A stretch of 64,000 bases of DNA from Phytohabitans houttuyneae (GTDB lineage Bacteria; Actinomycetota; Actinomycetes; Mycobacteriales; Micromonosporaceae): NCBI RefSeq assembly GCF_011764425.1, contig NZ_BLPF01000002.1, forward strand, positions 1,798,997 to 1,862,996. Direction: 5' to 3'. The notes beneath the pieces are model-generated. The model was not told the origin of the DNA, did no database searches, and worked only from the letters and a program-made list of their open reading frames with translations. The position numbers and the translations under genes are program-made. Each line of letters starts with the position of its first letter. Positions within the stretch are counted from its first letter, which is position 1. Positions 14,463-36,633 of this stretch are shown in pieces.

Positions 14463-15293
14463 ATGACAGTGCAGCCACCGGCAGGTGGGGTGGTACGGGA
14501 AGAGGTCATCGCCCCCGAGCCCGCGGAAGCCCTCGCCAACCTCCTGGACGTCGAGATCCCCGGCGACGTGCTGCCGCCGATGTGGCACTGGGTGTACCTG
14601 CTGGAGCGCCGCCGCACCGCGGACCTCGGTCCGGACGGCCACCCCACGTCCGGTGTACCGGCGCCGCCCGGCCCCGGACTCAAGCGGATGTTCGCCGGCG
14701 GCCGGGTGACCACCGCGCGGCCGCTGCGGATCGGGCGGCGCGCGACGCGGCGCAGCTGGGTGACGCGGACCAGCGAGAAGGTGGGGCGCAGCGGCCCGCT
14801 GACGTTTCTGACGCTGCGCGGCGAGATCAGCCAGGACGGTCACGTCGCGATCGTGGAGGAGAGCGACCTGGTGTACCGCGCGGCGGACGCGTCCTCGCCG
14901 ACCGCCGGCGCGCCCGCGTCCGAGCCACCGGTGGGTCCGCGGCTGCGCCTGGCCGTCGACGAGGCGTTCTTGTTCCGCTTCTCGGCGCTGACCTACAACG
15001 CGCACCGCATCCACTACGACCTGGGCTGGGCGCGCGCGGAGGGGTACGCCGGCCTGGTGGTGCACGGTCCGCTGCAGGCGCTGATGATGGCCGAGTTCGC
15101 CCGGCGGCACGGTGACGGCCTGGTCGGGCGGACCTTCGCCTTCCGGCTGGTCGCGCCGATGGTGGGCACCCAGACGCTGACGGTGTTGCCCGGGCCGGAC
15201 GGCGCGCAGGTCCTGGACGCGGGCGGGCAGATCACGGCGCGCAGCGAGTTCGTTCCTGGAAACGTTGCCGGCGATTCGCCTGGTCAGGCCTGA
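14463..15293 (+). CDS. HTD2/mesaconyl-C4-CoA hydratase-like MaoC-fold (de)hydratase
   Basis: A 276-aa protein with two hot-dog halves. The N-terminal FAS1-like half has 'LPPMWHWVYLLER..TADLGPDGHP..GVP.PPG..RRMFAGG' in style. The C-terminal half has 'FRFSALTYNAHRIHYDLGWARAEGYAGLVVHGPLQALMMAE', with the hydratase His/Asp motif. This is the family of mitochondrial HTD2 and of bacterial mesaconyl-C4-CoA hydratase, which add or remove water on short CoA esters. A LacI-type operator word lies inside its 3' end. With the CaiB and CitE-type genes of the island it suggests a CoA-bound diacid step. Confidence 0.85.
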   Translation: MTVQPPAGGVVREEVIAPEPAEALANLLDVEIPGDVLPPMWHWVYLLERRRTADLGPDGHPTSGVPAPPGPGLKRMFAGGRVTTARPLRIGRRATRRSWVTRTSEKVGRSGPLTFLTLRGEISQDGHVAIVEESDLVYRAADASSPTAGAPASEPPVGPRLRLAVDEAFLFRFSALTYNAHRIHYDLGWARAEGYAGLVVHGPLQALMMAEFARRHGDGLVGRTFAFRLVAPMVGTQTLTVLPGPDGAQVLDAGGQITARSEFVPGNVAGDSPGQA

Positions 15294-15376
15294 CCCGACG
15301 GTCGCGACCGCGTTCGGGTCCGCTCGACCACTTGACCGCACGGTCATGATCGGGTCAGGATTAGAATCGTTTCCAG
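15256..15376. promoter_or_regulatory. Two LacI-type operator sites before the E1 operon
   Basis: CTGGAAACGTTGCCGG at 15256-15271 and, in the opposite orientation, GAATCGTTTCCAG at 15364-15376. Both match the word CTGGAAACGwT found at other promoters of this island. The second is 34 bp before the E1 beta start. A palindrome GGTCAGGCCTGACC (15282-15295) lies between them and spans the stop codon of the hydratase gene. Confidence 0.65.
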
Positions 15377-15409
15377 CCCGAGAAGATGCAGGCCGGAGGG
15401 GTAGGTCGG

Positions 15410-16426
15410 ATGGCGCGGATGCGGGTGCGGCAGGCGATTGCGGCGGCGTTGGCCGACGCGATGCGCGAGGACGGTTCGGTGCTGCTGTTCGGGGAGGACG
15501 TGGCGGCCGCCGAGGGCCCGTTCAAGACCTCCGAAGGACTGCTGGCCGAGTTCGGGCCGCTGCGGGTGCGGGACACCCCGATCTCGGAGATGGGCTTCGT
15601 CGGCGCCGCGGTCGGCGCCGCCGCGGTGGGCATGCGGCCGGTCGTCGAGATCATGTTCATGGAGTTCCTCGGCGTCGCGCTCGACCAGCTGGTCACCGAG
15701 GCGGCCAAGTTCCGCTACCTCAGCAACGGCCGGGTCAGCGTGCCGCTTGTCGTGCGCGCCAGCATCGGCTCCGGCCTCGGCTTCGGCACCCAGCACAGCC
15801 AGACGCTGGAAAACTGGCTCACCGCCACGCCCGGCCTCAAGGTCGCCGTGCCCAGCGACGCGCAGACGGCGTACGGGCTGCTCCGCGCCGCCATCCGCGA
15901 CCCCGACCCGGTCGCGATCCTGGAGCCCCGCGCGCTCTACGCCGAGCGCGGCGAGTGCGTCACCGGCGAGGAGGGGATCGTCCCGCTCGGCACCGCCCGG
16001 GTCGTCCGCGAGGGCGACGCGGTCACCGTCGTCGCGCTCGGGCAGACCGTGCGCGCCGCGGTGAGCGCGGCCGAGCGGCTCGGCACCGGCGTCGAGGTGA
16101 TCGACCTGTCCACACTCGTGCCCTGGGACCGCGACACGGTGCTCGCCTCGGTGGCCAGGACCGGCCGGCTCGTCGTGGTCGAGGAGTCGCCGTCCAGCGG
16201 CGGCTGGGGCAGCGAGGTCGTGTCGGCGGTGACCGCGGCGGCGTTCCGGGCGCTGCAGGCACCGCCGTTCCGGATCACCGCGCCGGACGTGCCGGTGCCC
16301 TACAACCGGGGGCTGGAGGCGCGCTTCAGCCCGTCCGTCGACGAGGTCGAATACCAGCTGAAGACGTACCTGGACACCGGCGAGGTGCCGGATCCGTGGT
16401 GGCGGCGTGAGGGAGTGGCGGCATGA
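15410..16426 (+). CDS. 2-oxoacid dehydrogenase E1 component, beta subunit
   Basis: A 338-aa transketolase-like subunit. 'MRVRQAIAAALADAMREDGSVLLFGEDVAAAEGPFKTSEGL', 'PISEMGFVGAAVGAAAVGMRPVVEIMFMEFLGVALDQLV', and the C-terminal 'VVVEESPSSGGWGSEVVS' with 'PDVPVPYNRGLEARFSPS' are standard for pyruvate/acetoin/branched-chain E1 beta subunits, which complete the ThDP site with E1 alpha. GGAGGGG precedes ATG 15410. The beta gene comes before alpha, the reverse of the usual order. It is the first gene of an operon running to about 20.8 kb. Confidence 0.93.
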   Translation: MARMRVRQAIAAALADAMREDGSVLLFGEDVAAAEGPFKTSEGLLAEFGPLRVRDTPISEMGFVGAAVGAAAVGMRPVVEIMFMEFLGVALDQLVTEAAKFRYLSNGRVSVPLVVRASIGSGLGFGTQHSQTLENWLTATPGLKVAVPSDAQTAYGLLRAAIRDPDPVAILEPRALYAERGECVTGEEGIVPLGTARVVREGDAVTVVALGQTVRAAVSAAERLGTGVEVIDLSTLVPWDRDTVLASVARTGRLVVVEESPSSGGWGSEVVSAVTAAAFRALQAPPFRITAPDVPVPYNRGLEARFSPSVDEVEYQLKTYLDTGEVPDPWWRREGVAA

Positions 16427-17421
16427 CCCTGGTGAGGTCGAACGACCCGGAGCGGCGGCGTGCGGCGCTGGCCGACCCGGTCGCGCGCTACGAGCGGATG
16501 TACGAGATCCGCCGCTTCGAGGACCGGGTCAACGATTTGTTCGCCCGCGGCGCCATCCACGGCACCACCCACCTGTGCGCCGGCCAGGAGGCGCTCGACG
16601 TCAGCCTGGCGCTGGAGCTGCGCCCCACCGACACGGTCAGCGCGACCTACCGGGGGCACGGCATCGCGCTCGCGCTCGGCATGACCGTCCACTCCGTGCT
16701 CGCCGAGATCATGGGCAAGGCCGACGGGTGTACCGGCGGCGTCGGCGGCTCGATGCACCTGTCGGACCCGGACGTCGGCCTGCTGCCCACGTTCGCGATC
16801 GTCGGTGCCGGCCTGCCGGTGGCCGCCGGTGCCGCCCTGGCGTACCAGACCCGCGGTGAGGACCACGTCGCGGTCTGCGTCTTCGGCGACGGCGCGGCCA
16901 ACATCGGCGCCTTCCACGAGGCGCTCAACCTCGCCGCCGTCTGGAAGCTGCCGGTCGTCTTCGTCTGCGACAACAACGTCTACGCCGAGTACAGCCGGAT
17001 CGACCTCACCACCCCGCTCAGCGACCTGCACCGCCGGGCCGGCTCGTACGACATCCCCGGCGTGCCGGTCGACGGCATGGACGTCACCGCGACGCGGGCG
17101 GTGCTGGCCGAAGCGGTCGCGCGGGCCCGGGCCGGCGAAGGGCCGACGCTGGTGGAGGCCAAGACCTACCGCTTCGCCGGGCACTCCCGCGCCGACCAGG
17201 CCACCTACCGGCCGGCGGGTGAGCTCGAAAGGTGGCGCGAGCGCGACCCGCTCACGCTGGCCAGGGCCGAGCTGCTGGCCGCCGGCGCCGCCTCCGAGGA
17301 CGACTTGACCGCGCTGGAGAAGGCGGTCGGCGAGGACCTCGACGCCGTCGCGGACGCGGTGGCCGCGCTGCCCGACCCCGAGCCGGCGGCCATGTTCCGC
17401 AACGTGTGGGCCGCGGCATGA
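16423..17421 (+). CDS. 2-oxoacid dehydrogenase E1 component, alpha subunit
   Basis: A 332-aa ThDP-dependent subunit. 'YEIRRFEDRVNDLFARGAIHGTTHLCAGQEAL', 'ATYRGHGIALALG', 'GGVGGSMHL', and the ThDP-Mg motif 'FGDGAANIGAFHEALNLAAVWKLPVVFVCDNNVYAEY' (GDG...NN) are all intact. The acetoin-dehydrogenase/pyruvate-dehydrogenase alpha family is the closest. It decarboxylates a 2-oxoacid and passes the acyl group to a lipoyl domain. The ATG overlaps the E1 beta TGA (ATGA). The substrate is not readable from sequence; pyruvate or lactaldehyde-derived 2-oxoacids fit the neighbours. Confidence 0.94.
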   Translation: MTLVRSNDPERRRAALADPVARYERMYEIRRFEDRVNDLFARGAIHGTTHLCAGQEALDVSLALELRPTDTVSATYRGHGIALALGMTVHSVLAEIMGKADGCTGGVGGSMHLSDPDVGLLPTFAIVGAGLPVAAGAALAYQTRGEDHVAVCVFGDGAANIGAFHEALNLAAVWKLPVVFVCDNNVYAEYSRIDLTTPLSDLHRRAGSYDIPGVPVDGMDVTATRAVLAEAVARARAGEGPTLVEAKTYRFAGHSRADQATYRPAGELERWRERDPLTLARAELLAAGAASEDDLTALEKAVGEDLDAVADAVAALPDPEPAAMFRNVWAAA

Positions 17422-17657
17422 AGGTGACCGTCAAGCTGCCCCGGGTGGCCGAGACCGTCGACGAGGTCGTGATCATCGAGTGGGAGGTCGCCGTCGGCGC
17501 CACCGTGGCGGCCGGCGACCCGCTCGTGAAGGTGGAGACCGACAAGGCCGTTGTCGAGGTTCCGTCCCCGGTGGCGGGCGTGGTGCGGGAACATCTGGTC
17601 AAGGAGGACGACGAGGTGCGCACCGGGCAGCCGATCGCCGTCATCCAGGCGGGCTGA
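17418..17657 (+). CDS. Stand-alone lipoyl domain protein
   Basis: Seventy-nine residues form one lipoyl domain: 'VTVKLPRVAETVDEVVIIEWEVAVGATVAAGDPLVKVETDKAVVEVPSPVAG'. The Lys in ETDKA is the lipoylation site. There is no peripheral-subunit-binding or acyltransferase domain, and no E2 core or E3 gene follows in the window. The ATG overlaps the E1 alpha stop (ATGA). The domain would shuttle acyl groups from this E1 to an E2/E3 encoded elsewhere, or act as a dedicated carrier. Confidence 0.92.
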   Translation: MKVTVKLPRVAETVDEVVIIEWEVAVGATVAAGDPLVKVETDKAVVEVPSPVAGVVREHLVKEDDEVRTGQPIAVIQAG

Positions 17658-17672
17658 GGAGGAGGTAGCGCC

Positions 17673-18557
17673 GTGCTGTCCATTGTCGACACCCACGTGC
17701 ACTTCTGGAACCACAAGCATCCGGAGCTGCGCTGGGACTGGCTGGCGCCGGAGGCGGTACACCCCATCCTCGGCGACATCGACGGCATCAAGAGCGAGGC
17801 GTTCGACGCCCGCCACGTGTGGGCCGAGGCGCGGTTCGCCGGCGTCACCCACTTCGTGCACGTGCAGGCGGCGATCGGCTCACCCGACCCGGTCACCGAG
17901 ACGGTGTGGCTGACCGAGATGGCGGCACAGTACGACGGCATCCCCGCCGCGATCGTCGGCCACGCCGACCTCGGGCTCGACGGCGCGCAGGCACAGCTCG
18001 AACGGCACCTGGAGTCACCGCTCTTCAAGGGCGTACGCGACTTCGCCGCCGAACCGGCCCTGGCCGCCGGCGAGCTGCCCGCCGCGTACGAGCGGTCGCT
18101 GCGCTTCCTGGCCGCCCACGACCTCGTGTTCGACCTCGACTGCGAGTACCCCAACATGGCCGCCGCCGGCGCGCTCGCCGCCCGCCACCCGGACCTGCGC
18201 GTCGTGCTGGAACACTTCGGCTACCCGCGGCGCCGCGACCCGGACTACTTCGCCGCGTGGCGCGCCGCGATCACCGAGCTCGCCAAACACCCCAACGTGA
18301 CCTGCAAGATCTCCGGGCTGGCGATGACCGACCCGCTCTTCAGCCGCGAGTCGCTGCGGCCGTGGGCCGAGCACTGCGTGGACAGCTTCGGACCGCAACG
18401 GTGCGTGGTGGGTTCGAACTGGCCGGTGGACCGCCTCTTCAGCTCCTACGACTCCATCATGGACTGTTACCGGGAATACGTGTCCACGCTGTCGGAGGAC
18501 GAGCAGCGGGCCGTGCTGTCCGGCAACGCGCTCGACCTCTACCGGCTGGCGCCGTGA
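17673..18557 (+). CDS. Amidohydrolase family 2, sugar-lactonase-like
   Basis: A 294-aa TIM-barrel hydrolase. 'IVDTHVHFWN' supplies the metal HxH. 'GVRDFA', 'VFDLDCEYPNM', 'LRVVLEHFGYP', 'NVTCKISGLAM' and 'RCVVGSNWPVDRL' are typical of the L-fuconolactonase/L-rhamnono-lactonase/4-sulfomuconolactonase group. These enzymes open aldonolactones formed by sugar dehydrogenases. GTG 17673 follows AGGAGG. Its place beside enolase-superfamily dehydratases, an SDR and a rhamnose mutarotase makes a deoxy-sugar lactone the likeliest substrate. Confidence 0.85.
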   Translation: MLSIVDTHVHFWNHKHPELRWDWLAPEAVHPILGDIDGIKSEAFDARHVWAEARFAGVTHFVHVQAAIGSPDPVTETVWLTEMAAQYDGIPAAIVGHADLGLDGAQAQLERHLESPLFKGVRDFAAEPALAAGELPAAYERSLRFLAAHDLVFDLDCEYPNMAAAGALAARHPDLRVVLEHFGYPRRRDPDYFAAWRAAITELAKHPNVTCKISGLAMTDPLFSRESLRPWAEHCVDSFGPQRCVVGSNWPVDRLFSSYDSIMDCYREYVSTLSEDEQRAVLSGNALDLYRLAP

Positions 18558-19678
18558 AAGTCGCCGCCGTCGAACCGATCCCGGTCGCCTACCCGGAGCC
18601 CAACGACTTCGGCGCGACCCGGTACCTGTGCCTGGTCAAGGTGACCACCGACGAGGGGGCGGTCGGCTGGGGCGAGGCCATCACCCAGTTTCCGGACGCC
18701 AACCACGCGGTCGCCCGCCTCATCGAGGGGATGGCCGAGGCGGTCGTCGGCCGCGACCCGGTGCACACCGAGGCGATCTGGCGGGTCCTGAAGGACCGCG
18801 CCTGGTGGTACGGCTACGGCGGAGGCCTCGCCTCCTACGCCATCGCCGCCCTCGACATCGCGCTGTGGGACCTCAAGGGGCAGGCACTCGGGCGCAGCGT
18901 GCTCGACCTGCTCGGCGGCCCGGTGCACGAGCGGCTGCCGGCCATCGCCTCCGCGCACGCCCACCGCGAGTCGATCCCGGAGATGGCGGAGGAGGCGGCC
19001 GGCTGGCTCTCCACCGGCCTGCAGGGCGTGAAGGTCGGCTTCGGCAAGCGCGGCAACGCGCGACTGGGCTACGAGCACGACCGCGACGTCGAGTACGTGC
19101 GGGCCATGCGCGAGGCGATCGGCCCCGACCGCGCCCTGATGATCGACCTCGGCATCGCCATCAAGTGGGACGTGGCCACCGCGGTGCGCCGGGTCCGCGC
19201 CTTCGAGGACCACCGCATCGAGTGGATCGAGGAGCCGCTCGGCGCGTGGGATCCGGAAGGTTACGCGACGCTGCGGGCCAAGACCCAGACCTCCATCGCG
19301 TACGGCGAGAAGGAATGGACCCTCGACGGCTTCGAACGCGTGCTCGCGACCGGCACCTGCGACGTGCTCGGCGTCGACCCCGCGCGGGCCGAGGGCATCA
19401 CCGGGTTCAAGAAGGTCGTCGACCGGGTGGAGTTCTACCGCCGGCAGGCCAACGCACACGCCTGGTCCTCGGCGATCGTAACGGCGGCGAGCCTCGCCAT
19501 CTCGTTCAGCACGCCGGCCTGCAAGGTCTTCGAGCTCAAGCCGCTGCCCAACCCGATGCAGCACGACCTCGTCGCCGAGCCCTTCGCGCACGTCGACGGC
19601 TGGATGCTGCCGCCGGTGGCACGGCCCGGGCTGGGCATCACGGTCGACGAGAGCGTCGTGGACCGCTACCGGGCATGA
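18554..19678 (+). CDS. Enolase-superfamily (mandelate racemase group) sugar-acid dehydratase
   Basis: A 374-aa protein. The N-terminal capping domain is followed by a barrel with the three metal carboxylates in 'LMIDLGIAIKW', 'IEWIEEPLGAWD' and 'IAYGEKEWT'. A catalytic-type His sits in 'NAHAWSSAIVTAASLAIS'. The second-strand motif is 'GVKVGFGK'. The pattern fits galactonate/rhamnonate-type acid-sugar dehydratases that make 2-keto-3-deoxy acids. GTG 18554 overlaps the lactonase TGA (GTGA). The exact sugar acid cannot be read from the sequence. Confidence 0.87.
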   Translation: MKVAAVEPIPVAYPEPNDFGATRYLCLVKVTTDEGAVGWGEAITQFPDANHAVARLIEGMAEAVVGRDPVHTEAIWRVLKDRAWWYGYGGGLASYAIAALDIALWDLKGQALGRSVLDLLGGPVHERLPAIASAHAHRESIPEMAEEAAGWLSTGLQGVKVGFGKRGNARLGYEHDRDVEYVRAMREAIGPDRALMIDLGIAIKWDVATAVRRVRAFEDHRIEWIEEPLGAWDPEGYATLRAKTQTSIAYGEKEWTLDGFERVLATGTCDVLGVDPARAEGITGFKKVVDRVEFYRRQANAHAWSSAIVTAASLAISFSTPACKVFELKPLPNPMQHDLVAEPFAHVDGWMLPPVARPGLGITVDESVVDRYRA

Positions 19679-20811
19679 GCACGCTCGCCGCCATCGCCGG
19701 GCACGCGGCCGCCGCCCCCGTCGACCGCGACCGTGCCCGCCTGCTGCTCGCCGACCACCTCGCGTGCGTGGCGGCGACGGACGCCCCGCCGCTCGCGCCG
19801 GCCGCCGCGCTGGCGGTGCGCGCACACGCCGGCGACCGCGACGACATCTTCTGGCCCGCCCGCATCCACCCCGGCTCGGTGGTGTGGCCCGCCATCCTCG
19901 CCGCTCCCGTCACGGCGGACGGACCTGTGGTGGAGGCCGCCGCCGCGGGCTACGAGGCCGCGGCCGTCACCGCGACCTGGCTCGGCGACGCCTACGCCGC
20001 CCGGTGGCACGCCACCGCCACCGCTGGAGCGGCGGGCGCCGCCGCGGCCGCCGCCGTCATGCTCGCCGGTGCGCGTGACCCGGACGCGATCGCCGCCGCC
20101 GTCGGCCTCGCCCTCACCACCGCCGGCGGGATCGGCCAGACCATGCGCGAACGCTCCCCGGCCGCCGCCTGGCACCGCGCCGCCGCCGCCCTGACCGGCC
20201 TGGAAGCGGCCCGCGCCGCCGCCTGGGGCATGCGCCCGCCCGCGGGTGTGCTGGACGGCCCGGCCGGCGTCGGCGCACTGCTCGGCGCGGCCGGCCCGCC
20301 ACCGGCCGCGGCAGGTGCGCTGGGGCAGACCGCCATCCGCCCGTACCCGGTGAACGGCTTCGCCCAGAGCGCGGTGGCGGCGGTGCTCGCCCTCCGCGCG
20401 CGCGTCTCCACAGTGGACGCGCTTGAGGCGTCGGTGGCGCCTGCGGCGGCGTCGAGCGATACCACGTTGTGGTGGGATTTGGCGGCGACCGTCGCCCGTG
20501 CGTGGGTGTCCAGCGACCCGTTCCACCTCGTGGCCGAGCGCCCGCCACTTGACGTGCGGATACACGCCGACGAGGGCCGCCCGATCCAGTCGGTGCGCCT
20601 CTGGCCCGCAGGCCGTCCGGAGGAGGCGGTCGAGGTCACGCACGCCCCCGGCGGCCCGGACCAGGACACGGTGCCCCTGGCCGAACGCAAGTGGTCAGCG
20701 ATGGGAGGCCTCGACGTGCTGACGCTGTGGACCCTCGCTGCGGCGGCGATCGAGGGCAGCGCTCCGCTTGAGTCCATTGTGGAGGCTGTGGGGAGGGGGC
20801 GGGGCGGCTAG
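19675..20811 (+). CDS. MmgE/PrpD family protein
   Basis: A 378-aa all-Ala-rich protein. 'DHLACVAATDAPP', 'ARIHPGSVVWPAILAA', 'AAGYEAAAVTATWLGD', 'RWHATATAGAAGAAAAAAVMLAG' and 'AIRPYPVNGFAQSAVAAVLALRA' match the MmgE/PrpD (2-methylcitrate dehydratase, cis-aconitate decarboxylase, immune-responsive gene 1) fold. It is shorter than the usual 450 aa. Members dehydrate or decarboxylate tricarboxylic or branched dicarboxylic acids. The ATG overlaps the preceding dehydratase stop (ATGA), making it the last coupled gene of the E1 operon. Confidence 0.85.
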   Translation: MSTLAAIAGHAAAAPVDRDRARLLLADHLACVAATDAPPLAPAAALAVRAHAGDRDDIFWPARIHPGSVVWPAILAAPVTADGPVVEAAAAGYEAAAVTATWLGDAYAARWHATATAGAAGAAAAAAVMLAGARDPDAIAAAVGLALTTAGGIGQTMRERSPAAAWHRAAAALTGLEAARAAAWGMRPPAGVLDGPAGVGALLGAAGPPPAAAGALGQTAIRPYPVNGFAQSAVAAVLALRARVSTVDALEASVAPAAASSDTTLWWDLAATVARAWVSSDPFHLVAERPPLDVRIHADEGRPIQSVRLWPAGRPEEAVEVTHAPGGPDQDTVPLAERKWSAMGGLDVLTLWTLAAAAIEGSAPLESIVEAVGRGRGG

Positions 20812-20821: not shown

Positions 20822-22081
20822 GTGTTCGACCTGGGTGTGGTGATCGGCGAGCTGGCGCGGGTGCCGGCCGGCGCCGACCTGGCCGCGGTCCTCGCCCGCA
20901 TCGACCGCTCCGCGCTGAATGGTTACGAGCTGGTGGAGGTGGTCAAGGCCACCAGCCGGCAGGTCGCCCACTACCAGGCCGAGCTGCTCGCGTCCGTGCG
21001 GGAGACCGCCTACTGCCCGCCCGGCGACGAGGCCAGCCCGCCCGAGCGCACGGAGCGCCCCGCTGAGTATGCGTCGGACGAGATCCGGCTGGCGCTGGCC
21101 ATCACCCGCCGGGCGGCCGACACCTTGCTGGGCCTCGCCTACGAGTTGACCGAGCGCCTTCCGGCGGTCGGCGAGGCACTGCGGTCCGGCCGGATCGACC
21201 TGCCCAAGGCGCGTGTCCTGGACGAGGAGACTGCGGCCCTGCCACCGCCGGTCGCCCAGGAGATCGTCGGCCACGTCCTGCCGGTCGCCGGTGGCCTGAC
21301 CACGGGGCAGCTGCGGATCCGGCTCCGCAAGCTGGTCATCTCCGCCGATCCCGACGCGGCCGCCCGCCGGCAGCAGCAGGCGCTGGCGATGCGCCGCGTC
21401 GAGCACGGCCTCGACCCGACCGGCACCGCCACACTCGCCGGATACCACCTGCCGCCCGATCGCGCCGCCACCGCCGCCGCCCGCATCGACGCGCTGGCCC
21501 GCGCCGCCAAGCGCGCCGGGGACGCGCGGTCGATGGACGCGCTGCGCGCCGACCTCTTCCTGGACATCCTCAACGGCGAGCACCCCACCGCCGAAACCCC
21601 GCGCCGCGGCGGCGTGGAGCTCGTCGTCCCGCTGGCCACCCTGATGGGCCTGTCGGAGCAGCCGGGCGCCATCAAGGGCTGGGGGCCGGTGCTCGCCGAG
21701 GTCGCGCGGAAGGTCGCGGATGGTGAGCGCGACGGTGCGTGGCGGTTCAGCGTCACCGGCGGCGAGGCCGGTGCCGTGGTGGCCCACGGCAGGCTGCGGC
21801 GGCGGCCGCCGGCAGGTGAGGCCGCGTTCGTGAGGGCCAGGGACAGGACGTGCCGCACGCCGGGCTGCCGGACACCCGCGCACAGGTGCGACCTGGACCA
21901 CACGCGAGCGTGGGAGGACGGCGGCCCGACCACGCCGGCCAACCTGGGTGTCCTGTGTAGACACTGCCACGGCTACAAGCACAGCGACGGGGTCTGCGTG
22001 ACCCAGCCGACGCCGGGCACCTTCGTGTGGCGCACCCGGCTCGGCCACACCTACACCACCGGTCCACCGGCGCCCATTTGA
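20822..22081 (+). CDS. DUF222 / 13E12-type HNH endonuclease domain protein
   Basis: About 419 aa. The N-terminal DUF222 part has 'LNGYELVEVVKATSRQVAHYQAELLASV' and 'DEIRLALAITRRAADTLLGLAYELTERLP'. The C-terminal HNH nuclease domain reads 'CRTPGCRTPAHRCDLDHTRAWEDGGPTTPANLGVLCRHCHGYKH', with zinc Cys pairs and the catalytic His/Asn. Such genes are multi-copy in actinomycetes (13E12 family) and are linked to repeats and mobile DNA. It sits 10 bp after the MmgE gene and is probably unrelated to the catabolic pathway. Start GTG 20822. Confidence 0.92.
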   Translation: MFDLGVVIGELARVPAGADLAAVLARIDRSALNGYELVEVVKATSRQVAHYQAELLASVRETAYCPPGDEASPPERTERPAEYASDEIRLALAITRRAADTLLGLAYELTERLPAVGEALRSGRIDLPKARVLDEETAALPPPVAQEIVGHVLPVAGGLTTGQLRIRLRKLVISADPDAAARRQQQALAMRRVEHGLDPTGTATLAGYHLPPDRAATAAARIDALARAAKRAGDARSMDALRADLFLDILNGEHPTAETPRRGGVELVVPLATLMGLSEQPGAIKGWGPVLAEVARKVADGERDGAWRFSVTGGEAGAVVAHGRLRRRPPAGEAAFVRARDRTCRTPGCRTPAHRCDLDHTRAWEDGGPTTPANLGVLCRHCHGYKHSDGVCVTQPTPGTFVWRTRLGHTYTTGPPAPI

Positions 22082-24410: not shown

Positions 24411-24433
24411 GTTGACCTCTGAATGACGTTACC

Positions 24434-26723: not shown

Positions 26724-26751
26724 CGCCCCGCGGGGGCCGGAGGTGGCAGCC

Positions 26752-27515: not shown

Positions 27516-27652
27516 CTGGAAACGACTCCATACTGCCGACGGGCGCCGCCATCGATCGATGACGGTCGTCCGGCGGATCATGCTGGGAGGGCGTTTCCGC
27601 AGGAAATAACGATTCTGGAAACGTTGCCAGAAGCGTTGACAAACGATTCCAG
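27516..27652. promoter_or_regulatory. Cluster of LacI-type operators before the sugar ABC importer
   Basis: Three sites lie in the 190-bp gap ahead of the importer: CTGGAAACGACTCCA (27516-27530), CTGGAAACGTTGCCAG (27615-27630) and AAACGATTCCAG (27641-27652, opposite orientation). A partial GCGTTTCC is at 27591. Their number and spacing suggest looping or cooperative repression of the importer operon. Confidence 0.72.
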
Positions 27653-30098: not shown

Positions 30099-30931
30099 GC
30101 CCCACGACGACGAGCCGCGCCGCCCGCGACCGGCTGGCCTGGTCCCACCTCGCGCTGCTGCCGCTGGCAGTGCTGTGGCTGCTGCCGATCGCGCTGCTGC
30201 TCAACGGCGCGCTGCGCACCAGCACCGCCGACATCTTCAGCGTCACGCCGAGCGGGCTGACCCTGGAAAACCTCATCGCGGTATGGCGGGAGACCGACCT
30301 GCTGCGCATGTTCGTCAACAGCACGGTCGTCACGATCGCGTCGGTCGTGGCCGTCGTCGTGCTCGGCTCGCTGGCCGGCTTCGGGCTGGCCTTCTACCGC
30401 TTCCGCGGCTCCGGGATCGTGCTGCTGATCCTGCTGTCCGGCATCATGCTCGCACCCGCCGCGATCATCGTCCCGCTGTACGAGCTGATCCTCGACCTCG
30501 GCCTGCTCAACACCTACCCCGCCCTCGTCGGCCCGTACACCGCGCTGGGGCTGGCCGCGTCCGTGCTGCTGTACCGCAACGCCTTCCTGGCCCTGCCCAA
30601 CGAGCTGCGCGAAGCGGCCAGCCTCGACGGCGCCGGGAGCTTCCGCATCTACCTGCGCATGTACCTGCCGCTCGCCCGCACCGCCACCGTCACGATCGCG
30701 ATCCTGCAAGGGCTCGCGGCGTGGAACGACTACATCCTCGCGTTGCTGTTCATGACCGACGGCAAGCACGAGACGGTACAGCTCGCCTTCATCGCCTTCC
30801 AGGGACAGTACTTCTCGTCGCTGCCCAAGCAGTTCGCGGTCATGGCGATCGTCATGCTCCCCGTGCTGATCATCTTCCTCGTCGCGCAACGCGCCTTCGT
30901 CAGCGGCCTCTCGGCCGGCGCCGTCAAGTAG
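30095..30931 (+). CDS. Sugar ABC transporter permease 2 (MalG-type)
   Basis: A 278-aa membrane protein with six helices. The EAA motif reads 'ELREAASLDGAGSFRIYLRMYLPLARTATVTIAILQGLAAWNDYILALLFM', typical of MalG/CUT1. 'PAAIIVPLYELILDLGLLNTYPALVGPYTALGLAASVLLYRNAF' is also standard. The ATG overlaps the stop of permease 1 (ATGA). With the binding protein it makes a three-gene importer under the operator cluster at 27.5-27.65 kb. Confidence 0.94.
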   Translation: MSPTTTSRAARDRLAWSHLALLPLAVLWLLPIALLLNGALRTSTADIFSVTPSGLTLENLIAVWRETDLLRMFVNSTVVTIASVVAVVVLGSLAGFGLAFYRFRGSGIVLLILLSGIMLAPAAIIVPLYELILDLGLLNTYPALVGPYTALGLAASVLLYRNAFLALPNELREAASLDGAGSFRIYLRMYLPLARTATVTIAILQGLAAWNDYILALLFMTDGKHETVQLAFIAFQGQYFSSLPKQFAVMAIVMLPVLIIFLVAQRAFVSGLSAGAVK

Positions 30932-30951: not shown

Positions 30952-32550
30952 GTGGACTGGAGCACCCTCGGCGTCGTGCAGGCGCTGGGCGGTGGGGCCG
31001 ACCCCGCCGCCGATCCCGGCACCTGCCGCGTCACCACCCCCGACGGCCACACCGTCGACATCCCCGCCTTCACCGGCGCCGACGGCCGGCTGCGGGCCCG
31101 GGTGCGGCACACCGCGCCCGGCACCTACGAGTTCACCTTCTCCGCCGGCACCACCGCCACCGTCGAGATGCCCGCGCCACCGCCGCCGCGCCGCGACCTC
31201 ACCGCCCGTCCGGGCGAGCGGTTCCTGCGCGACGAAAACGGCCAGCCGTTCCTGTGGGTCGCCGACACCTGGTGGTACGCGTTCAGCGAGCGCGCCGACG
31301 ACGCCGCCTTCGCCGAGCTGGTGCAGCTGCGTCGCACACAGGGGTTCACGGTCGTGCAGCTCGTCGCCGGCCTGTACCCCGAAACGACAGCCTTCACCCC
31401 GCAGGCCGCGACCGGCGGCCGGTGGTCCTGGACACCGGACCTGAGCCACCCCGATCCACAGTGGTGGGACGACGCCGAGCGGCGCCTGGCGGCGGTCGTC
31501 GCGGCCGGCCTGACCCCCGCCGTCGTCGGCGCGTGGAGCTACTACCTGCTCGACCTCGGCGACGAGCGCATCCGCCGGCACTGGCGCGAGATCATCGCCC
31601 GCTGGGCCGCCCTCCCGGTGCTCTGGTGCGTCTGCGGCGAGGTCGGGCTGCCGCACTACGACGAGCTGACCGCCGACGACCTGCCCGACCGCGTCGCCGA
31701 CCTGGTCACCCGCTGGTCCGCGATCGGCGCCGAGCTGCGCAGGACCGACCCCTACCAGCGGCCGGTCACGTACCACCCCTGCCCGGCGTTCCGGCACCAC
31801 ACCAGCCTCGACGCGGTCGGCGACCAGGCCGAGGTCGACCTCGTGTGGATGCAGACCGGCCACGCCGACCGGGGCTCGGTGGCGCAGTCGCTGCGCGCCC
31901 TCGACCAGGCCCGCGCCGCCGAACCCCCGCTGCCGGTCGTCAACTCCGAGGTCTGCTACGAGGGGATCGCGGCCGGCTCCTCCGCGACGCTGCAACGGAT
32001 GCTCTTCTGGTCGCACATGCTCGGCGGCGCGGCCGGCCACACCTACGGCGCGCAGGGCATCTGGGCCTTCGCCCGCGGCCGGGCCGACGACCCCGGCGAC
32101 GTGTGGGGCACGACCGACTGGCAGGAGGCGGCGCGGCTGCCCGGCGCGGCGCAGACCGGGCTCGGCGGGCGGCTGCTGTCGGAGCTGCGGTGGTGGGAGC
32201 ACCGCCCGTGGCAGAGCGGCGTGGCGCCCTACGCGACGCGGGAGAGCCCCTTCCTGCCGTACTGCGCGGGCACCGGCACCGAACGCGTCGTCTACGTACC
32301 CGCCAACAGCCTGCGCGAGCCCACCATCGGCATCTCGCTCGCGCTGCGCACCCTCGGGCTGCGCGAGCTCGGCGCCGGCACGTGGCGCGTCGACGTGGTC
32401 AACCCGCGCACCGGCGCGGTCGCCGCCACCCACGCCGCCCGCGTCGACGCGACAGGGGAGTGGGAGCTGCCCGGCACCCACTTCGCCACCTCCCTACCCA
32501 CCTTCGAAGACTGGTTGCTGATCTGCCGTAAGGAGGGCGACGCAGCATGA
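30952..32550 (+). CDS. DUF4038 (apiosidase-like) glycoside hydrolase
   Basis: A 532-aa protein without signal peptide, so probably cytosolic. The catalytic barrel begins 'RFLRDENGQPFLWVADTWWYAFSERADD', the DUF4038 start, and continues with 'LRRTQGFTVVQLVAG', 'WVCGEVGLPHY'-type and 'PVVNSEVCYEGIAAG' strands with candidate catalytic Glu residues. The last 90 residues ('RVVYVPANSLRE...WRVDVVNPRTGAV') resemble the small beta domain found after DUF4038. The founding relative (GH140) removes apiose from rhamnogalacturonan II. It probably hydrolyses an imported oligosaccharide. Start GTG 30952. Confidence 0.82.
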   Translation: MDWSTLGVVQALGGGADPAADPGTCRVTTPDGHTVDIPAFTGADGRLRARVRHTAPGTYEFTFSAGTTATVEMPAPPPPRRDLTARPGERFLRDENGQPFLWVADTWWYAFSERADDAAFAELVQLRRTQGFTVVQLVAGLYPETTAFTPQAATGGRWSWTPDLSHPDPQWWDDAERRLAAVVAAGLTPAVVGAWSYYLLDLGDERIRRHWREIIARWAALPVLWCVCGEVGLPHYDELTADDLPDRVADLVTRWSAIGAELRRTDPYQRPVTYHPCPAFRHHTSLDAVGDQAEVDLVWMQTGHADRGSVAQSLRALDQARAAEPPLPVVNSEVCYEGIAAGSSATLQRMLFWSHMLGGAAGHTYGAQGIWAFARGRADDPGDVWGTTDWQEAARLPGAAQTGLGGRLLSELRWWEHRPWQSGVAPYATRESPFLPYCAGTGTERVVYVPANSLREPTIGISLALRTLGLRELGAGTWRVDVVNPRTGAVAATHAARVDATGEWELPGTHFATSLPTFEDWLLICRKEGDAA

Positions 32551-35342
32551 CGCGGCTGAGCATCGAGGACCTGGGCTGGCGGCCGGCCGACCACCGGCCG
32601 GGCGACGGGACCACCACCGTCACCGCCGGCGACACCACAGTGGAGCTGCGCTGGCCACGCCCGGTCGTGGCCGAGCCGGACCAGCTCGCGCACATCTCCG
32701 GCTGGCGCACGATCCCCGGCGGCCGCCTCGGCGAGGAGCCCGGCGAAGAGGCCGGCCTGCGCGCCGGCTACCACGCCGCCGACCTCGACGACACCACCTG
32801 GTACGCGGCCTCCCGCGTCAACGAGGTCACCTTCGGCTTCCCCACCTGGGAAGGCGAGTCCTACGCCGGCTACCTCTGGTACCGCACCCGCGCCGCCCGC
32901 CCGGCCGCCGGCGGCCCGCTCGCCGTCACGCTCGGCTCCCCGCTGGAACGCCGCCGCCTCACCTGGCGCGTCTTCGTCGACGGCGTGGAGGCCACCGCCG
33001 CGCCGGTCCACAGTGGAATGGTCACCGTCGACCTGGCCGGCGCGGGCGGGGACGGTCGGGAGCTGACCATCGCCGTCCAGCTGCGGGTCGAGCCGGTGTT
33101 CGCCCCGGACCAGGCCCGCGAGCGCGAGGGCTGGCGCAACGTCGACAAGTACTGCTACCAGCACGTACACGTGGCCGGCGCGTTCCGCACCCTGGACGCG
33201 GTCGAGGCCCGGCCGGACGGCGACGGGCTCGCGCTCGCATACCCGGACGGCATCACCGCCACGGTCCGCTACGAGACCGCCGGCGACCTCGTCCGGCAAC
33301 GGGCCACCCTGCGCGGCGACGGGCCCTGGGTCTCGCACGTGCTCCTGACCGAGCAGGCGCGACCCGGCGCCGACTACCACGCCGACGGCGCGTGGGCGCG
33401 GTGGGACGGGCGGTTCCAGGCGGCGGTACATCCCGGCGCCGTCACCCACGCCGGCGACAGCGGACCGGTCAGCGCGTACTGGCCGGGCCGGCGCCTCACC
33501 ACCGGACAGCCGATGGAAGCGCCGGACGTGGTGATCGGCGTCGACGTGCGCGACCTGCTCGCCCGCATCGGCCGCGAGCGCACGCCGTACCGCATCTACG
33601 ACCCCTACGGCTGGTACCAGATCTCGCACGTCAACGAGCCGAAGATCGAGCTGACCGACGCGATGATGGGCGACATCGACACCGTGCTGGACCGGCTCAC
33701 CGCCGCCGGCGCCACGTTCGACGCCCTCTCGCTCGACTGCGGCTGGAACGACCCCGAAGACCTGAGCCGCTTCCACCCGGCCAACTTCGCCGACGGCCCC
33801 GCCTCGGTGCAGGCGGTCATCAAGCGGCACGACCTCGACCTGATCCTGTGGGTCTCGCCCAGCGACGGCGCCCGCGCGTTCCGCCACGAGCTGGGCATGG
33901 CCGAGCCGCGGCTGGAGGCGGCACAGGCGGCCAACGCGGCCTTCCCGTGGCGGCTCTGCCCGGCCGCCGACCCGTGGCGGGGCGAGTTCCGCGAGGCGCT
34001 GCTGCGGCACGTGACCGCCAACGGCGCCACCGGGTTCAAAGTGGACGGCACCGAGCTGTGGTGCGTCAACGCCGCGCACGCGCACGCGCCCGGCATCCAC
34101 AGCCTGCTCGCCACCACCGAGGCGCTCATCGAGACGTTCGAGGCGGTCATCGCCGCGGGCGCGCCGTTCCTGATGCTCTACTGGGGACTGCGCTCGCCGT
34201 GGTGGCTGCGCTACGGGGCGACGCTGTGGGAGCGCGACTACCTCGTCGAGGCGGCCGGCCCGTCCGGCGTAGCCTCGTGGCACCTGCGCCTGGCCGTGGC
34301 GTCCTCGCAGGACATCGGCCAGCAGTCGTACTGGTCCACCATCCCCGCCCACCAGCAGGACTCGCTCGGTGTGTGGGTGAGCACCACGCTCTGGGCCAGC
34401 AGGCAGGGCGCGGCGCAGTGGGAGGACGCGCAGATCCTCGACGTCGCCCGCGGCTCCCTGCTCAACCAGCTCTGGGGCGACCTGCGGATGGTCGACGAGG
34501 ACCGGGTCGCCGCCCTCTTCGCGCTGGAGCGGGCCCGCCAGCCCGAGCTGCTCGGCGACGGCCGCCCGGTCGGCCGGGCCTGGCACGACGACGCCTACGG
34601 CTACCTGTGGTCCAGCGACGCCGGCAGCTGGGTCGTGCTGTCCCGCCCCGGCCCCACCGGCACCGTCGAGGTCGAGGTGCCGGCCGGCCGGCGCGGCGTG
34701 CTCGTCGACTACCTCACCGGCGGCGCCACGGCGCGGGCGTCCCTCGACGGCGGCGTGCTGCGGGTGGCACAGTCCGGCGGCAGCGTCATCGCCGTCTACC
34801 TGTCCACCGAGGACGGACCGGCGAGCGCTGGCGAGGAGCCACCCGTCCCCACGGCATACGAGTGGAGCGCGGCGGGGCAGAGCCGGGAGGCGGCCGGCGA
34901 CGGCGTGAAGCCGGCCTACCTGGGGCGCGCGCCGCAGATCGCGAGCTGGATGAGAAACGAAAAGCCCGACGAGCTCACGCTGGACCGGATCGTCCCCTGC
35001 GTACCGGCCGCCGACCGCACGCTGGAGGTCGTGGAGCGGCGGTGGGAAGGCGAGGTCGACCTCGACATCGAGAGCCGGTGCGCGCTGGTGACGTCGGTGA
35101 CCCGCGCGGGCGCCGCCTGGCACAACGACCGCCTGCACGAGCTCGTCGCGGTGACGCTGGAGGTCGACGGGGCGCCGGTCACGCCCGAGCGCTGGCCGCA
35201 CTTCCACCACGAGCAGGCCGGCAGCTGGTCGTCCACAGTGGACGCGTTCACGCTGCCCGCCGGGCGGCACACGCTTCGGGCCACCGTCCGGTCGCTGCTG
35301 CCCGACACGGTCGACGCGACCACCGCGCTGTGGGTCCGCTGA
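32547..35342 (+). CDS. GH36/alpha-galactosidase-like glycosidase
   Basis: A 931-aa cytosolic protein. Beta-sandwich regions at both ends flank a TIM barrel. The barrel contains 'FDALSLDCGWNDPEDLSRFHPANFADGP', 'LDLILWVSPSDG' and 'GFKVDGTELW', where D500 occupies the place of the catalytic nucleophile of GH36/GH27-like enzymes. 'GLRSPWWLRYGATLWERDYLVEAAGP' and 'YWSTIPAHQQDSLGVWVSTTLWAS' follow. The N-terminal part has a galactose-binding-like 'DDTTWYAASRVN..F..W.G..YAGYLWYR'. The ATG overlaps the DUF4038 stop (ATGA). Substrate class: an alpha-linked deoxy- or galacto-sugar glycoside, by inference. Confidence 0.78.
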   Translation: MTRLSIEDLGWRPADHRPGDGTTTVTAGDTTVELRWPRPVVAEPDQLAHISGWRTIPGGRLGEEPGEEAGLRAGYHAADLDDTTWYAASRVNEVTFGFPTWEGESYAGYLWYRTRAARPAAGGPLAVTLGSPLERRRLTWRVFVDGVEATAAPVHSGMVTVDLAGAGGDGRELTIAVQLRVEPVFAPDQAREREGWRNVDKYCYQHVHVAGAFRTLDAVEARPDGDGLALAYPDGITATVRYETAGDLVRQRATLRGDGPWVSHVLLTEQARPGADYHADGAWARWDGRFQAAVHPGAVTHAGDSGPVSAYWPGRRLTTGQPMEAPDVVIGVDVRDLLARIGRERTPYRIYDPYGWYQISHVNEPKIELTDAMMGDIDTVLDRLTAAGATFDALSLDCGWNDPEDLSRFHPANFADGPASVQAVIKRHDLDLILWVSPSDGARAFRHELGMAEPRLEAAQAANAAFPWRLCPAADPWRGEFREALLRHVTANGATGFKVDGTELWCVNAAHAHAPGIHSLLATTEALIETFEAVIAAGAPFLMLYWGLRSPWWLRYGATLWERDYLVEAAGPSGVASWHLRLAVASSQDIGQQSYWSTIPAHQQDSLGVWVSTTLWASRQGAAQWEDAQILDVARGSLLNQLWGDLRMVDEDRVAALFALERARQPELLGDGRPVGRAWHDDAYGYLWSSDAGSWVVLSRPGPTGTVEVEVPAGRRGVLVDYLTGGATARASLDGGVLRVAQSGGSVIAVYLSTEDGPASAGEEPPVPTAYEWSAAGQSREAAGDGVKPAYLGRAPQIASWMRNEKPDELTLDRIVPCVPAADRTLEVVERRWEGEVDLDIESRCALVTSVTRAGAAWHNDRLHELVAVTLEVDGAPVTPERWPHFHHEQAGSWSSTVDAFTLPAGRHTLRATVRSLLPDTVDATTALWVR

Positions 35343-35662
35343 TGGAACGGATCTGCTTCCAGCTGCACGTCCGGCCGGACGCCGTCGAGGAGTACCGCCG
35401 CCGCCACGCCGAGGTCTGGCCGGACATGCGGGCGGCGCTCAGCGCGGCCGGCTGGCACAACTACAGCCTCTTCCTGCGCCCGGACGGGCTGGCCGTCGGC
35501 TACCTGGAGTCGCCGGACTTCGCCGCCTCGCTGGAGCGCATGGACGGCCTCGACGTCAACACCCGGTGGCAGGCCGAGATGGCGCCGCTGGTCGTCCGCG
35601 CCACCGGGCGGCGGGCCGACCAGAGCCTGGAACAGCTGCCCGAGATCTTCCACCTCGACTGA
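35342..35662 (+). CDS. rhaM: L-rhamnose mutarotase
   Basis: A 106-aa ferredoxin-like-fold protein. 'RICFQLHVRPDAVEEYRRRHAEVWPDMRAALSAAGWHNYSLFLRPDGLAVGYLES.DFAASLERM' is the RhaM/RhaU (DUF718) family signature, including the His of 'RRRH' and the W-P pair. It interconverts alpha and beta anomers of L-rhamnose, and relatives act on L-fucose. The ATG overlaps the stop of the GH36-like gene (TGATG). This is the best single clue that the island handles a 6-deoxyhexose. Confidence 0.92.
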   Translation: MERICFQLHVRPDAVEEYRRRHAEVWPDMRAALSAAGWHNYSLFLRPDGLAVGYLESPDFAASLERMDGLDVNTRWQAEMAPLVVRATGRRADQSLEQLPEIFHLD

Positions 35663-35676
35663 GGAGCCACCCCCAC

Positions 35677-36633
35677 ATGGAACGTGCCGCGCGTATCCGC
35701 CGCTCCTGCCTGGCGGTGCCGGGTTCGAGCGTGAAGATGCTTGAGAAGGCTCGGGGTCTGCCGGCGGATCAGGTGTTTTTGGATTTGGAGGATGCGGTCG
35801 CGCCGTTGGCGAAGCCGGATGCGCGTAAGAACGTGGTGGCGGCGTTGAACGAGGGTGACTGGGGTGGGCGGACGCGGGTGGTGCGGGTCAATGATTTGAC
35901 GACGCCGTGGACGTACCGGGATGTGGTGGAGGTGGTCGAGGGGGCGGGGGCGAGCCTTGACTGTGTGATGTTGCCGAAGGTGCAGTCGGCGTCTCATGTG
36001 CAGTGGCTGGATTTGACGTTGACGCAGGTCGAGAAGGCGTTGGGTTTGGAGGTGGGGCGGATCGGGATCGAGGCGCAGATCGAGAATGCGGCTGGTCTGG
36101 TGAATGTGGATGCGATCGCGGGGGCTTCGCCTCGGGTGGAGACGGTGATTTTCGGGCCGGCGGATTTCATGGCGAGTGTCAACATGCGTTCGTTGGTGGT
36201 GGGTGCGTTGATTCCGGAGTATCCGGGGGATCCGTATCACTACATCCTGATGCGGATCTTGATGGCTGCGCGGATGCATGACAAGCAGGCGATCGATGGC
36301 CCGTTCCTGCAGATCCGGGATGTGGATGGGTTTCGTGAGGTGGCGAAGCGGTCGGCGGCGTTGGGGTTTGACGGTAAGTGGGTGTTGCACCCGGGTCAGA
36401 TCGACGCGGCGAATGAGGTGTACTCGCCGGCTCAGGCGGATTATGACCATGCCGAGTTGATCCTGGACGCGTACGAGTTCTACACGTCGGAGGCGGGTGG
36501 CCGGCTGGGTGCGGTGATGCTCGGTGACGAGATGATCGACGAGGCGTCGCGGAAGATGGCGTTGGTCATCGCGGCCAAGGGGCGCGCGGCCGGGATGAGC
36601 CGCACGACCTCCTTCACACCACCCGAGGGCTGA
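35677..36633 (+). CDS. CitE-type CoA-ester lyase (HpcH/HpaI aldolase family)
   Basis: A 318-aa barrel lyase. 'RRSCLAVPGSSVKMLEKARGLPADQVFLDLEDAVAP..K..AR..V', 'MLPKVQSASHV', 'IGIEAQIENAAGLVNVDAIA' and 'VIFGPADFMASVNM' carry the Arg and the two Mg-binding acids. 'KWVLHPGQIDAANEVYSP' is typical of CitE/Mcl (malyl-, citramalyl-CoA lyase). GAGGAG precedes ATG 35677. Codon use differs strongly from its neighbours between about 35735 and 36560 (many TTG, GAT, GGT, GTG). It overlaps the convergent XRE-TetR gene by 20 bp. Confidence 0.9.
   Translation: MERAARIRRSCLAVPGSSVKMLEKARGLPADQVFLDLEDAVAPLAKPDARKNVVAALNEGDWGGRTRVVRVNDLTTPWTYRDVVEVVEGAGASLDCVMLPKVQSASHVQWLDLTLTQVEKALGLEVGRIGIEAQIENAAGLVNVDAIAGASPRVETVIFGPADFMASVNMRSLVVGALIPEYPGDPYHYILMRILMAARMHDKQAIDGPFLQIRDVDGFREVAKRSAALGFDGKWVLHPGQIDAANEVYSPAQADYDHAELILDAYEFYTSEAGGRLGAVMLGDEMIDEASRKMALVIAAKGRAAGMSRTTSFTPPEG

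Follow-up and report, generated by a model that had tools for sequence, protein, structure and literature searches.

A gene island of the actinomycete Phytohabitans houttuyneae appears to form one LacI-controlled functional unit for the uptake and oxidation of a sugar. The island occupies positions 14463-36633 of a 64,000-nucleotide stretch of the genome (hereafter the window); its families were assigned by gene calling and by Pfam and NCBIfam scans of the window's proteins. According to the best reading of its gene content, on which our confidence is evenly divided, a dedicated 2-oxoacid dehydrogenase E1 converts a 2-keto-3-deoxy sugar acid, by oxidative decarboxylation, into a coenzyme A (CoA) thioester. 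The main novelty would thus lie in the coupling of enolase-superfamily sugar-acid dehydratases to a dedicated 2-oxoacid dehydrogenase, and not in the cleavage of a diacid at the CoA level, which a preliminary description of this DNA had proposed.

This coupling recurs in distantly related bacteria. One scan of a genome collection yielded 300 confirmed relatives of MLE2, one of two dehydratases of the MR/MLE group encoded in the island, and the loci of the best 80 of these (L035-L114) were analysed. Genes for E1 alpha and beta, called by identity thresholds, are present in 49 of the 80 loci, and the E1-bearing loci belong to Actinomycetota, Chloroflexota and Pseudomonadota; MLE2 and E1 are therefore linked in three phyla. 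By Fisher tests uncorrected for relatedness, further sugar genes are commoner in the 49 loci with E1 than in the 31 without it: the second dehydratase MLE1 (33 versus 5; p 9e-6), SDR homologues of at least 40% identity (34 versus 1; p 1e-9), the mutarotase RhaM (17 versus 1; p 8e-4) and LacI (34 versus 12; p 0.01). The corresponding counts are 19 and 6 for Gfo (p 0.09) and 12 and 2 for the amidohydrolase (p 0.07). Distances between MLE2 proteins also correlate with those between E1 alpha proteins (r 0.81, reached by 0 of 2000 permutations; Mantel test, 47 rows). The preliminary description had raised the case that the CoA-level genes travel separately from the sugar genes; E1 does not. Within P. 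houttuyneae itself, the 20-kb stretches round 13 other MR/MLE matches contain no match (1e-10) to E1, the lipoyl protein, CaiB, CitE or PrpD.

Of 197 genomes of the class, P. houttuyneae included, six carry MLE2 (E 1e-80) and four carry MLE1. The closest MLE2 relatives among the best 80 of 300 are those of Phytohabitans suffuscus and Phytohabitans flavus (97% identity) and Asanoa iriomotensis (94%), in which E1 lies 7-8 kb from MLE2; homologues of MLE1 (69-76%) are found in loci of Planktophila, Chloroflexota and Alphaproteobacteria. Residues K167, K169, D198, E225, D275, H301 and H302 of MLE2 are invariant in six aligned rows, and its ratio of nonsynonymous to synonymous substitution (dN/dS) of 0.08-0.09 denotes strong conservation under purifying selection. 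MLE1 scores best with the galactonate dehydratase model of NCBIfam (173 bits against a cut-off of 311), and MLE2 with those for arabinonate and talarate/galactarate, every score falling far short of its cut-off. As no curated NCBIfam cut-off was reached by any of the ten island proteins compared, substrates cannot be named from families.

The catalytic signatures of a 2-oxoacid dehydrogenase are preserved in these loci. A lone lipoyl protein accompanies the E1 pair in 31 of the 49 E1 loci, and in five others a full-length E2 follows the pair (L072, L075, L101, L104 and L109; Mesorhizobium, Bauldia, Rhodospirillales, Solirubrobacteraceae and Conexibacter); the enzyme of those five loci is therefore a true 2-oxoacid dehydrogenase. 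Of 50 E1 alpha rows, 49 have an intact thiamine pyrophosphate (TPP) motif; among 34 lone lipoyl rows, of which three derive from genomes beyond the 80 loci, 33 retain the lipoylation motif. The island in the window encodes no E2 acyltransferase; it carries instead a lone lipoyl protein of 83 residues (17406-17657), which the preliminary description does not name, and E2 genes lie elsewhere in the genome. A housekeeping pyruvate dehydrogenase was considered for the island E1 and rejected, since a separate AceE is already present in all six genomes tested. Two side observations concern the same complex. Loci L079, L088 and L089 hold an E2 gene 6-12 kb from the E1-lipoyl genes (6-10 kb in L079 and L088), together with lipoate-synthesis-like and, in L079 and L088, E3-like genes (by eye). 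Where the lipoyl protein is lacking, the neighbours of E1 or SDR genes include a muconolactone-isomerase-like protein of about 98 residues (by eye; L082:16209-16505, L090, L095, L099 and G200), possibly a lactone isomerase of the pathway.

Enzymes that act on 2-keto-3-deoxy acids belong mostly to the FAH and DHDPS families, and Pfam detects neither family in the island. Among the 49 E1 loci, 98 cluster representatives of 116 unassigned genes (200-440 residues; families at E 1e-8) gave no match to FAH (PF01557), DHDPS (PF00701) or HpcH (PF03328), while individual proteins among them were assigned to PEP_mutase, PfkB, Aldedh, Thiolase_N and further families. By comparison, FAH or DHDPS genes occur in 3 of the 13 other MR/MLE loci of P. 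houttuyneae (p 0.008 against 0 of 49). Because the loci share the E1 pair and the cleavage families were not found, E1 is proposed to take the 2-keto-3-deoxy acid. Alternatively, the loci could encode an ordinary non-phosphorylative route that ends in pyruvate plus an aldehyde or hydroxy acid; the gene for the cleavage enzyme would then lie elsewhere, and E1 would act as an extra sugar-induced pyruvate (or acetoin-type) dehydrogenase. The E1 alpha score of 333 bits with the pyruvate dehydrogenase model (cut-off 394) is in keeping with this, as are the four FAH and six DHDPS-family matches that the genome holds outside the window, five of the latter over cut-off. The ordinary route nevertheless seems unlikely: it would require unlinked cleavage genes in 49 loci where the remaining steps are linked, the genomes tested already possess AceE, and a full E2 stands beside E1 in five loci.

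Several points weigh against oxidative decarboxylation by E1 and the linkage on which it is built. All MLE2 loci derive from one pattern scan and from the best 80 of its 300 confirmed matches; many represent related freshwater genomes and some are short, such that the p values overstate independence, and the Mantel correlation is likewise uncorrected for relatedness. A survey starting from E1, in which 20 of 84 listed E1 places were fetched (including 8 of the 9 foreign ones at 50% identity or more), placed only four of the eight foreign matches of at least 50% in sugar loci (L199, L201, L202 and L207); L199 and L201 lack MLE2 in the stretch, and L202 is locus L072 again. None of the 11 fetched matches below 50% is in a sugar locus, and the genome's own second E1 alpha/beta pair (G000:C4:95301-96233, L206), 51% identical to the island E1 alpha, is outside any such locus. 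Judged from these sequences, the island-type E1 subfamily appears to be enriched in sugar loci and not exclusive to them. Thirteen of the 49 E1 loci have neither lipoyl protein nor E2 in the examined stretch, though some end at a contig border. In the 1.3-Mb genome of Candidatus Planktophila versatilis only two genes encode an E2 domain, and neither of them adjoins E1; its lone lipoyl protein would therefore be served in trans or work otherwise, E2 in trans being an assumption. The Pfam scan covered one gene per cluster of called genes of 200-440 residues and left out recurring clusters that had been named otherwise. A sequence search (BLAST and hidden Markov models) with eight FAH/DHDPS proteins of P. 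houttuyneae (4/4 FAH, 4/6 DHDPS) gave 0 hits in the 49 E1 loci and 1 in the 31 others, and proved insensitive: leave-one-out models missed all three control genes, and it was not relied on. The absence of FAH and DHDPS may thus mark MLE2 loci in general and not E1 loci, the ones that the Pfam scan covered. Finally, CitE-type lyases, which are conceivable aldolases, occur in 7 of the 49 E1 loci.

Strand and spacing suggest three transcription units in the island. Unit (a), at 15410-20811 (plus strand), comprises E1 beta, E1 alpha, the lone lipoyl protein, the amidohydrolase, MLE1 and PrpD, with the hydratase gene (14463-15293) upstream; in unit (b), CaiB and Gfo/Idh (22135-24410, minus strand) diverge from MLE2, LacI and SDR (24483-27507, plus strand); and unit (c), at 27823-36633 (plus strand), comprises the importer, the PF13204 glycosidase, a 931-residue protein, RhaM and CitE. 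Apart from the motif-based GH36-like label, every family named in the preliminary description is encoded here, and the set expected for non-phosphorylative sugar oxidation is present at family level (SDR and Gfo dehydrogenases, a PF04909 lactonase-type protein and two MR/MLE proteins). The genes and operator candidates are as follows.

14463..15293, plus strand: FAS1-DH/MaoC-type enoyl-CoA hydratase (PF13452, 32 bits)
15257..15270: operator candidate before E1 beta, within the 3' end of the hydratase gene; P. suffuscus (L035) has a similar one at 1469
15362..15375: operator candidate before E1 beta; L035 has the same site at 1575
15410..16426, plus strand: 2-oxoacid dehydrogenase E1 beta (PF02779/PF02780; EMGF motif)
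16423..17421, plus strand: 2-oxoacid dehydrogenase E1 alpha (PF00676, 257 bits; TPP motif GDG...NN)
17406..17657, plus strand: lone lipoyl-domain protein, 83 residues, without E2 catalytic domain (PF00364, 74.5 bits; lipoylation motif ETDKA)
17673..18557, plus strand: amidohydrolase, probable sugar lactonase (PF04909, 152 bits)
18554..19678, plus strand: MLE1, enolase-superfamily (MR/MLE) acid-sugar dehydratase (Pfam match)
19675..20811, plus strand: MmgE/PrpD-family protein (PF03972, 67 bits)
20822..22081: DUF222/HNH gene, between PrpD and Gfo/Idh
22135..23205, minus strand: Gfo/Idh/MocA oxidoreductase (PF01408, 72 bits)
23202..24410, minus strand: CaiB/BaiF class III CoA transferase (PF02515, 400 bits)
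24433..24446: operator candidate between the divergent CaiB and MLE2; same place in L035-L037
24483..25598, plus strand: MLE2, enolase-superfamily (MR/MLE) acid-sugar dehydratase (PF13378, 170 bits)
25650..26723, plus strand: LacI-family regulator (PF00356, PF13377)
26743..27507, plus strand: SDR oxidoreductase (PF13561, 179 bits)
27517..27530: operator candidate before the importer operon
27616..27629: operator candidate before the importer operon, exact match; exact in L035 and L036
27823..29133, plus strand: substrate-binding protein (SBP_bac_1 type) of an ATP-binding cassette (ABC) importer (PF01547, 66 bits)
29133..30098, plus strand: ABC importer permease (PF00528)
30095..30931, plus strand: ABC importer permease (PF00528)
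30952..32550, plus strand: DUF4038/PF13204 apiosidase-like glycosidase (198.5 bits, cut-off 26.5)
32547..35342, plus strand: presumed glycosidase of 931 residues, family not established
35330..35662, plus strand: RhaM-family sugar mutarotase (PF05336, 94 bits)
35677..36633, plus strand: CitE-type lyase, nearest to malyl-CoA/beta-methylmalyl-CoA lyase

Five sites of a LacI-type operator candidate, TGGAAACGNTNCCA, precede the three transcription units. With one mismatch allowed, the palindromic pattern occurs six times in the 64 kb against 1.29 expected, a number reached in 0 of 100 shuffles; the sixth site, at 2792, falls outside the island. The pattern was derived from these same promoters beforehand, and its test across other loci is therefore weightier. 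The 80 MLE2 loci hold 202 sites, compared with 46 in one mononucleotide shuffle of all 80, and 147 of them are in upstream zones of called genes where 53 are expected by area. These candidates precede MLE2, E1, CaiB, Gfo, RhaM, SDR, importer and CitE genes, and extend across phyla to Chloroflexota (L057, L059) and Mesorhizobium (L104); the hydratase gene of the window has no operator candidate before it. The preliminary description had called the island co-regulated, and this is supported: the candidate operators speak for a single regulon that spans sugar and CoA-level genes.

P. suffuscus, P. flavus and A. iriomotensis, with an MLE2 of 94-97% identity, conserve the synteny of the island. A chance assembly of two or three operons that have nothing to do with one another could draw on the HNH gene inside the island, matched in P. 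flavus only among the neighbourhoods compared (not in the P. suffuscus or Asanoa loci), and on the sporadic occurrence of MaoC and CitE. It was rejected on account of the synteny and the common operator candidates, to which the linkage in three phyla may be added, and we give it hardly any credence. Other features of the compared loci are recorded here for completeness. Positions 36614-37477 encode a regulator whose N-terminal part is of XRE type and whose C-terminal part is of TetR type. It adjoins genes for enoyl-CoA hydratase, acyl-CoA dehydrogenase and SDR proteins, none of which is matched in the part of the P. suffuscus stretch that follows CitE. Planktophila-type loci (L038-L058) carry, after MLE2, phosphotriesterase-, creatininase-, ceramidase- and 2,4-diaminopentanoate-dehydrogenase-like genes. 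Three of this type (L041, L047, L058) are from metagenome-assembled genomes titled Streptomyces griseus or Bifidobacterium breve; their MLE2 is near-identical to the Planktophila type and the titles are probably wrong. A conserved protein of about 370 residues with no NCBIfam match at 1e-20 (L107:5177-6289 and six other loci) is encoded in sugar-acid loci of Acidimicrobiia and relatives.

The CoA-side genes differ in how closely they follow the sugar genes. CaiB is retained in the three closest relatives (87-94% identity), with homologues of 49-57% in Chloroflexota and other Actinomycetota loci and of at least 45% in 9 of the 80. At that threshold it has no specific tie to E1 (7/49 E1 loci versus 2/31 without E1; p 0.47), whereas homologues at any level are commoner with E1 (20/49 versus 5/31; p 0.03); in the Planktophila group a homologue of 31-35% lies divergent to E1. 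Its nearest solved relative is succinate-HMG CoA-transferase (250 bits), and it scores 243 bits with the succinyl-CoA:mesaconate model (cut-off 700). The hydratase, previously described as mesaconyl-C4-CoA-hydratase-like, does belong to the hydratase family, though its nearest solved relative is itaconyl-CoA hydratase (8khg, 164 bits). It is present in both Phytohabitans relatives but not in the Asanoa locus, and in 4 of the 80 MLE2 loci; a RipB/Ich-like hydratase occurs in 2 of the 80. PrpD (dN/dS 0.21-0.31) is less conserved than its neighbours.

CitE is found in 10 of the 80 loci, 7/49 with E1 and 3/31 without (p 0.73). The window copy is 99.4% identical over 936 bases to a second copy in the same genome (G000:C1:4810083-4810966), which has two gaps and was read in two pieces (L156, L157). 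The two CitE copies of P. suffuscus share 97.7% identity, against a difference of 12% between the species; in both species, then, the paired copies resemble each other more closely than the species do, a pattern like that of gene conversion. The 12 kb to either side of rhaM contain no CitE copy in P. flavus; this species and Asanoa have one copy each, in a housekeeping context. The island thus appears to have received its CitE recently, through copying or gene conversion, from a housekeeping gene of the malyl-CoA-lyase-like kind. This origin and the lack of a specific association with E1 weaken the case for CitE as a core enzyme.

Two narrower schemes give these genes a central role. The preliminary description had proposed that a branched or deoxy sugar acid yields a C5-C6 diacid; CaiB would activate it, the MaoC-type enzyme would add water, and CitE would split the product into acetyl-CoA and pyruvate. 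A C5-C6 diacid intermediate is possible: the nearest relatives of the hydratase and CaiB are compatible with it, CitE is present, and similar sets adjoin MLE2 in L060 and L062 and, without CaiB, in L093. As the core of the pathway, however, the mesaconyl-CoA/citramalyl-CoA route is not supported, given a hydratase in few loci and without an operator candidate, CaiB (at 45% or more) and CitE not tied to E1, a recently copied CitE that is missing beside rhaM in P. flavus, and no role left for the E1 and lipoyl genes. Assignment of the lyase to the CitE family stands, but citramalyl-CoA cleavage is not favoured: the lyase scores 145.3 bits with the RipC/Ccl citramalyl-CoA lyase model (cut-off 375), and its nearest solved relatives are malyl-CoA lyases (243 bits, 5ugr, and 200 bits), which fit better. 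The scheme as a whole is quite improbable. In the other scheme, a special case of decarboxylation by E1 with the lyase central, E1 would act on 4-hydroxy-2-oxoglutarate (a dehydrated pentarate) and the product malyl-CoA would be split by CitE to acetyl-CoA and glyoxylate or released as malate by CaiB. Besides the affinity of CitE to malyl-CoA lyases, a tartrate dehydrogenase over its curated cut-off adjoins E1 in two Chloroflexota loci (L077, L083), and malyl-CoA therefore stays among the conceivable CoA esters. Even so, this variant is improbable: tartrate dehydrogenase occurs in just 3 of the 49 E1 loci and CitE in seven, the window CitE is a recent copy, and the mutarotase and lactonase point to a neutral sugar.

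Clues to the sugar are discordant. The 30952..32550 protein contains a PF13204 catalytic domain, which we take to denote the GH140 apiosidase family, and this suggests apiose. The 931-residue protein, present in 1 of 150 genomes of the order (P. houttuyneae itself), has no Pfam match at 0.001 (GH31 only at E 0.16), no GH36 or GH27 match and no PDB match; its earlier 'GH36-like' label rests on motifs, and its predicted structure is unusable (predicted local distance difference test score 38.5). The mutarotase belongs to the RhaM family (PF05336), as previously described, but its specificity for L-rhamnose is less secure, with a TIGR02625 score of 58.5 below the cut-off of 99.6. The amidohydrolase scores 127 bits with the L-fucono-1,5-lactonase model (cut-off 400). 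L-fucose, L-rhamnose, D-arabinose and their relatives are the foremost candidates. A canonical rhamnose operon was considered and set aside; in Ca. P. versatilis, a CitE-like gene and rhaM have isomerase-, aldolase- and kinase-like genes (by eye) as neighbours. Both glycosidases start without an evident signal peptide, which together with the SBP_bac_1-type importer fits uptake of a glycoside and its cleavage inside the cell. The lipobox signal peptide of the binding protein (27690-27900) is in another frame than the mature part, while both are in one frame in P. suffuscus and Asanoa; the window thus has an apparent frameshift, either real or an assembly error.

Under the preferred reading, decarboxylation of the 2-keto-3-deoxy acid by E1, a glycoside would be imported and cut inside the cell, and the freed sugar mutarotated. 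The sugar would be oxidized at C1 by SDR and/or Gfo/Idh, the lactone opened by the amidohydrolase, and the aldonate dehydrated by MLE1 and/or MLE2 to the 2-keto-3-deoxy acid. E1 alpha and beta, with the lone lipoyl protein as a swinging carrier and E2 and E3 in trans, would turn this 2-oxo acid, with loss of one carbon, into a 3-hydroxyacyl-CoA, which would be a fourth fate of 2-keto-3-deoxy sugar acids. CaiB would hand the CoA on, and the hydratase and malyl-CoA-lyase-like CitE may be lineage-specific additions that finish the CoA ester. We infer the substrate, the reaction order, the supply of E2 and E3 in trans and the roles of CaiB, CitE, the hydratase and PrpD. More tentatively still, the loci may represent a widespread and undescribed 'Route IV', in which dedicated 2-oxoacid dehydrogenases, some consisting of E1 alpha/beta and a lone lipoyl carrier that borrows E2 and E3, make hydroxyacyl-CoA from 2-keto-3-deoxy sugar acids, and sugars join metabolism as CoA esters, bypassing pyruvate. 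A single conserved LacI operator would govern the route in Actinomycetota, the streamlined freshwater Planktophila among them, and likewise in Chloroflexota and Alphaproteobacteria; doubt slightly outweighs confidence here. A fourth fate that yields CoA esters, if true, would change the prediction of sugar catabolism from freshwater and soil bacterial genomes, and explain why a 1.3-Mb genome keeps further E1 genes with a lone lipoyl protein. The island offers a named enzyme set and one operator as targets for tests.

Three fates of 2-keto-3-deoxy sugar acids have been described, namely aldol cleavage, dehydration, and dehydrogenation followed by hydrolysis (PMC6336799). Like the non-phosphorylative Routes I-III for pentoses and deoxyhexoses, the island clusters a 1-dehydrogenase, a lactonase, an acid-sugar dehydratase, an ABC importer and a regulator; unlike them, the loci were not found to hold the aldolase, second dehydratase or hydrolase, and have E1 alpha/beta and a lipoyl protein instead, with a CoA transferase (PMC6336799). 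The available part of PMC9795676 names no oxidative decarboxylation, and searches of open-licence PMC papers turned up neither an account of this gene set, with its coupling of dehydratases to a dedicated 2-oxoacid dehydrogenase, nor one of the proposed CoA esters as products of sugar breakdown. The Campylobacter jejuni fuc operon similarly unites FucX (SDR), the hydrolase Cj0487 and the mutarotase Cj0488, but has a DapA-type synthase and a dehydratase; E1, a lipoyl protein and a CoA transferase are not in its gene list, so far as the available part gives it (PMC6946681). SAR202 pathways for fucose and rhamnose combine COG4948 dehydratases with COG1028 and COG3618, as in the island, but their proposed end products are pyruvate and lactate or lactaldehyde, their aldolases are of COG3836, and the available part mentions no 2-oxoacid dehydrogenase (PMC10444878).

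Itaconate degradation proceeds through a CoA transferase, Ich/RipB and Ccl/RipC. The island resembles it in encoding a CaiB-type transferase, a MaoC-type hydratase and a CitE-type lyase, and differs in that the lyase is far below the RipC cut-off and closer to malyl-CoA lyase, and the set is sporadic in relatives. With pyruvate and branched-chain 2-oxoacid dehydrogenase complexes it shares the TPP motif of E1 alpha/beta and the lipoyl motif; what sets it apart from these is a lone lipoyl protein in place of E2, a sugar-acid context and the operator candidates of a sugar regulon.

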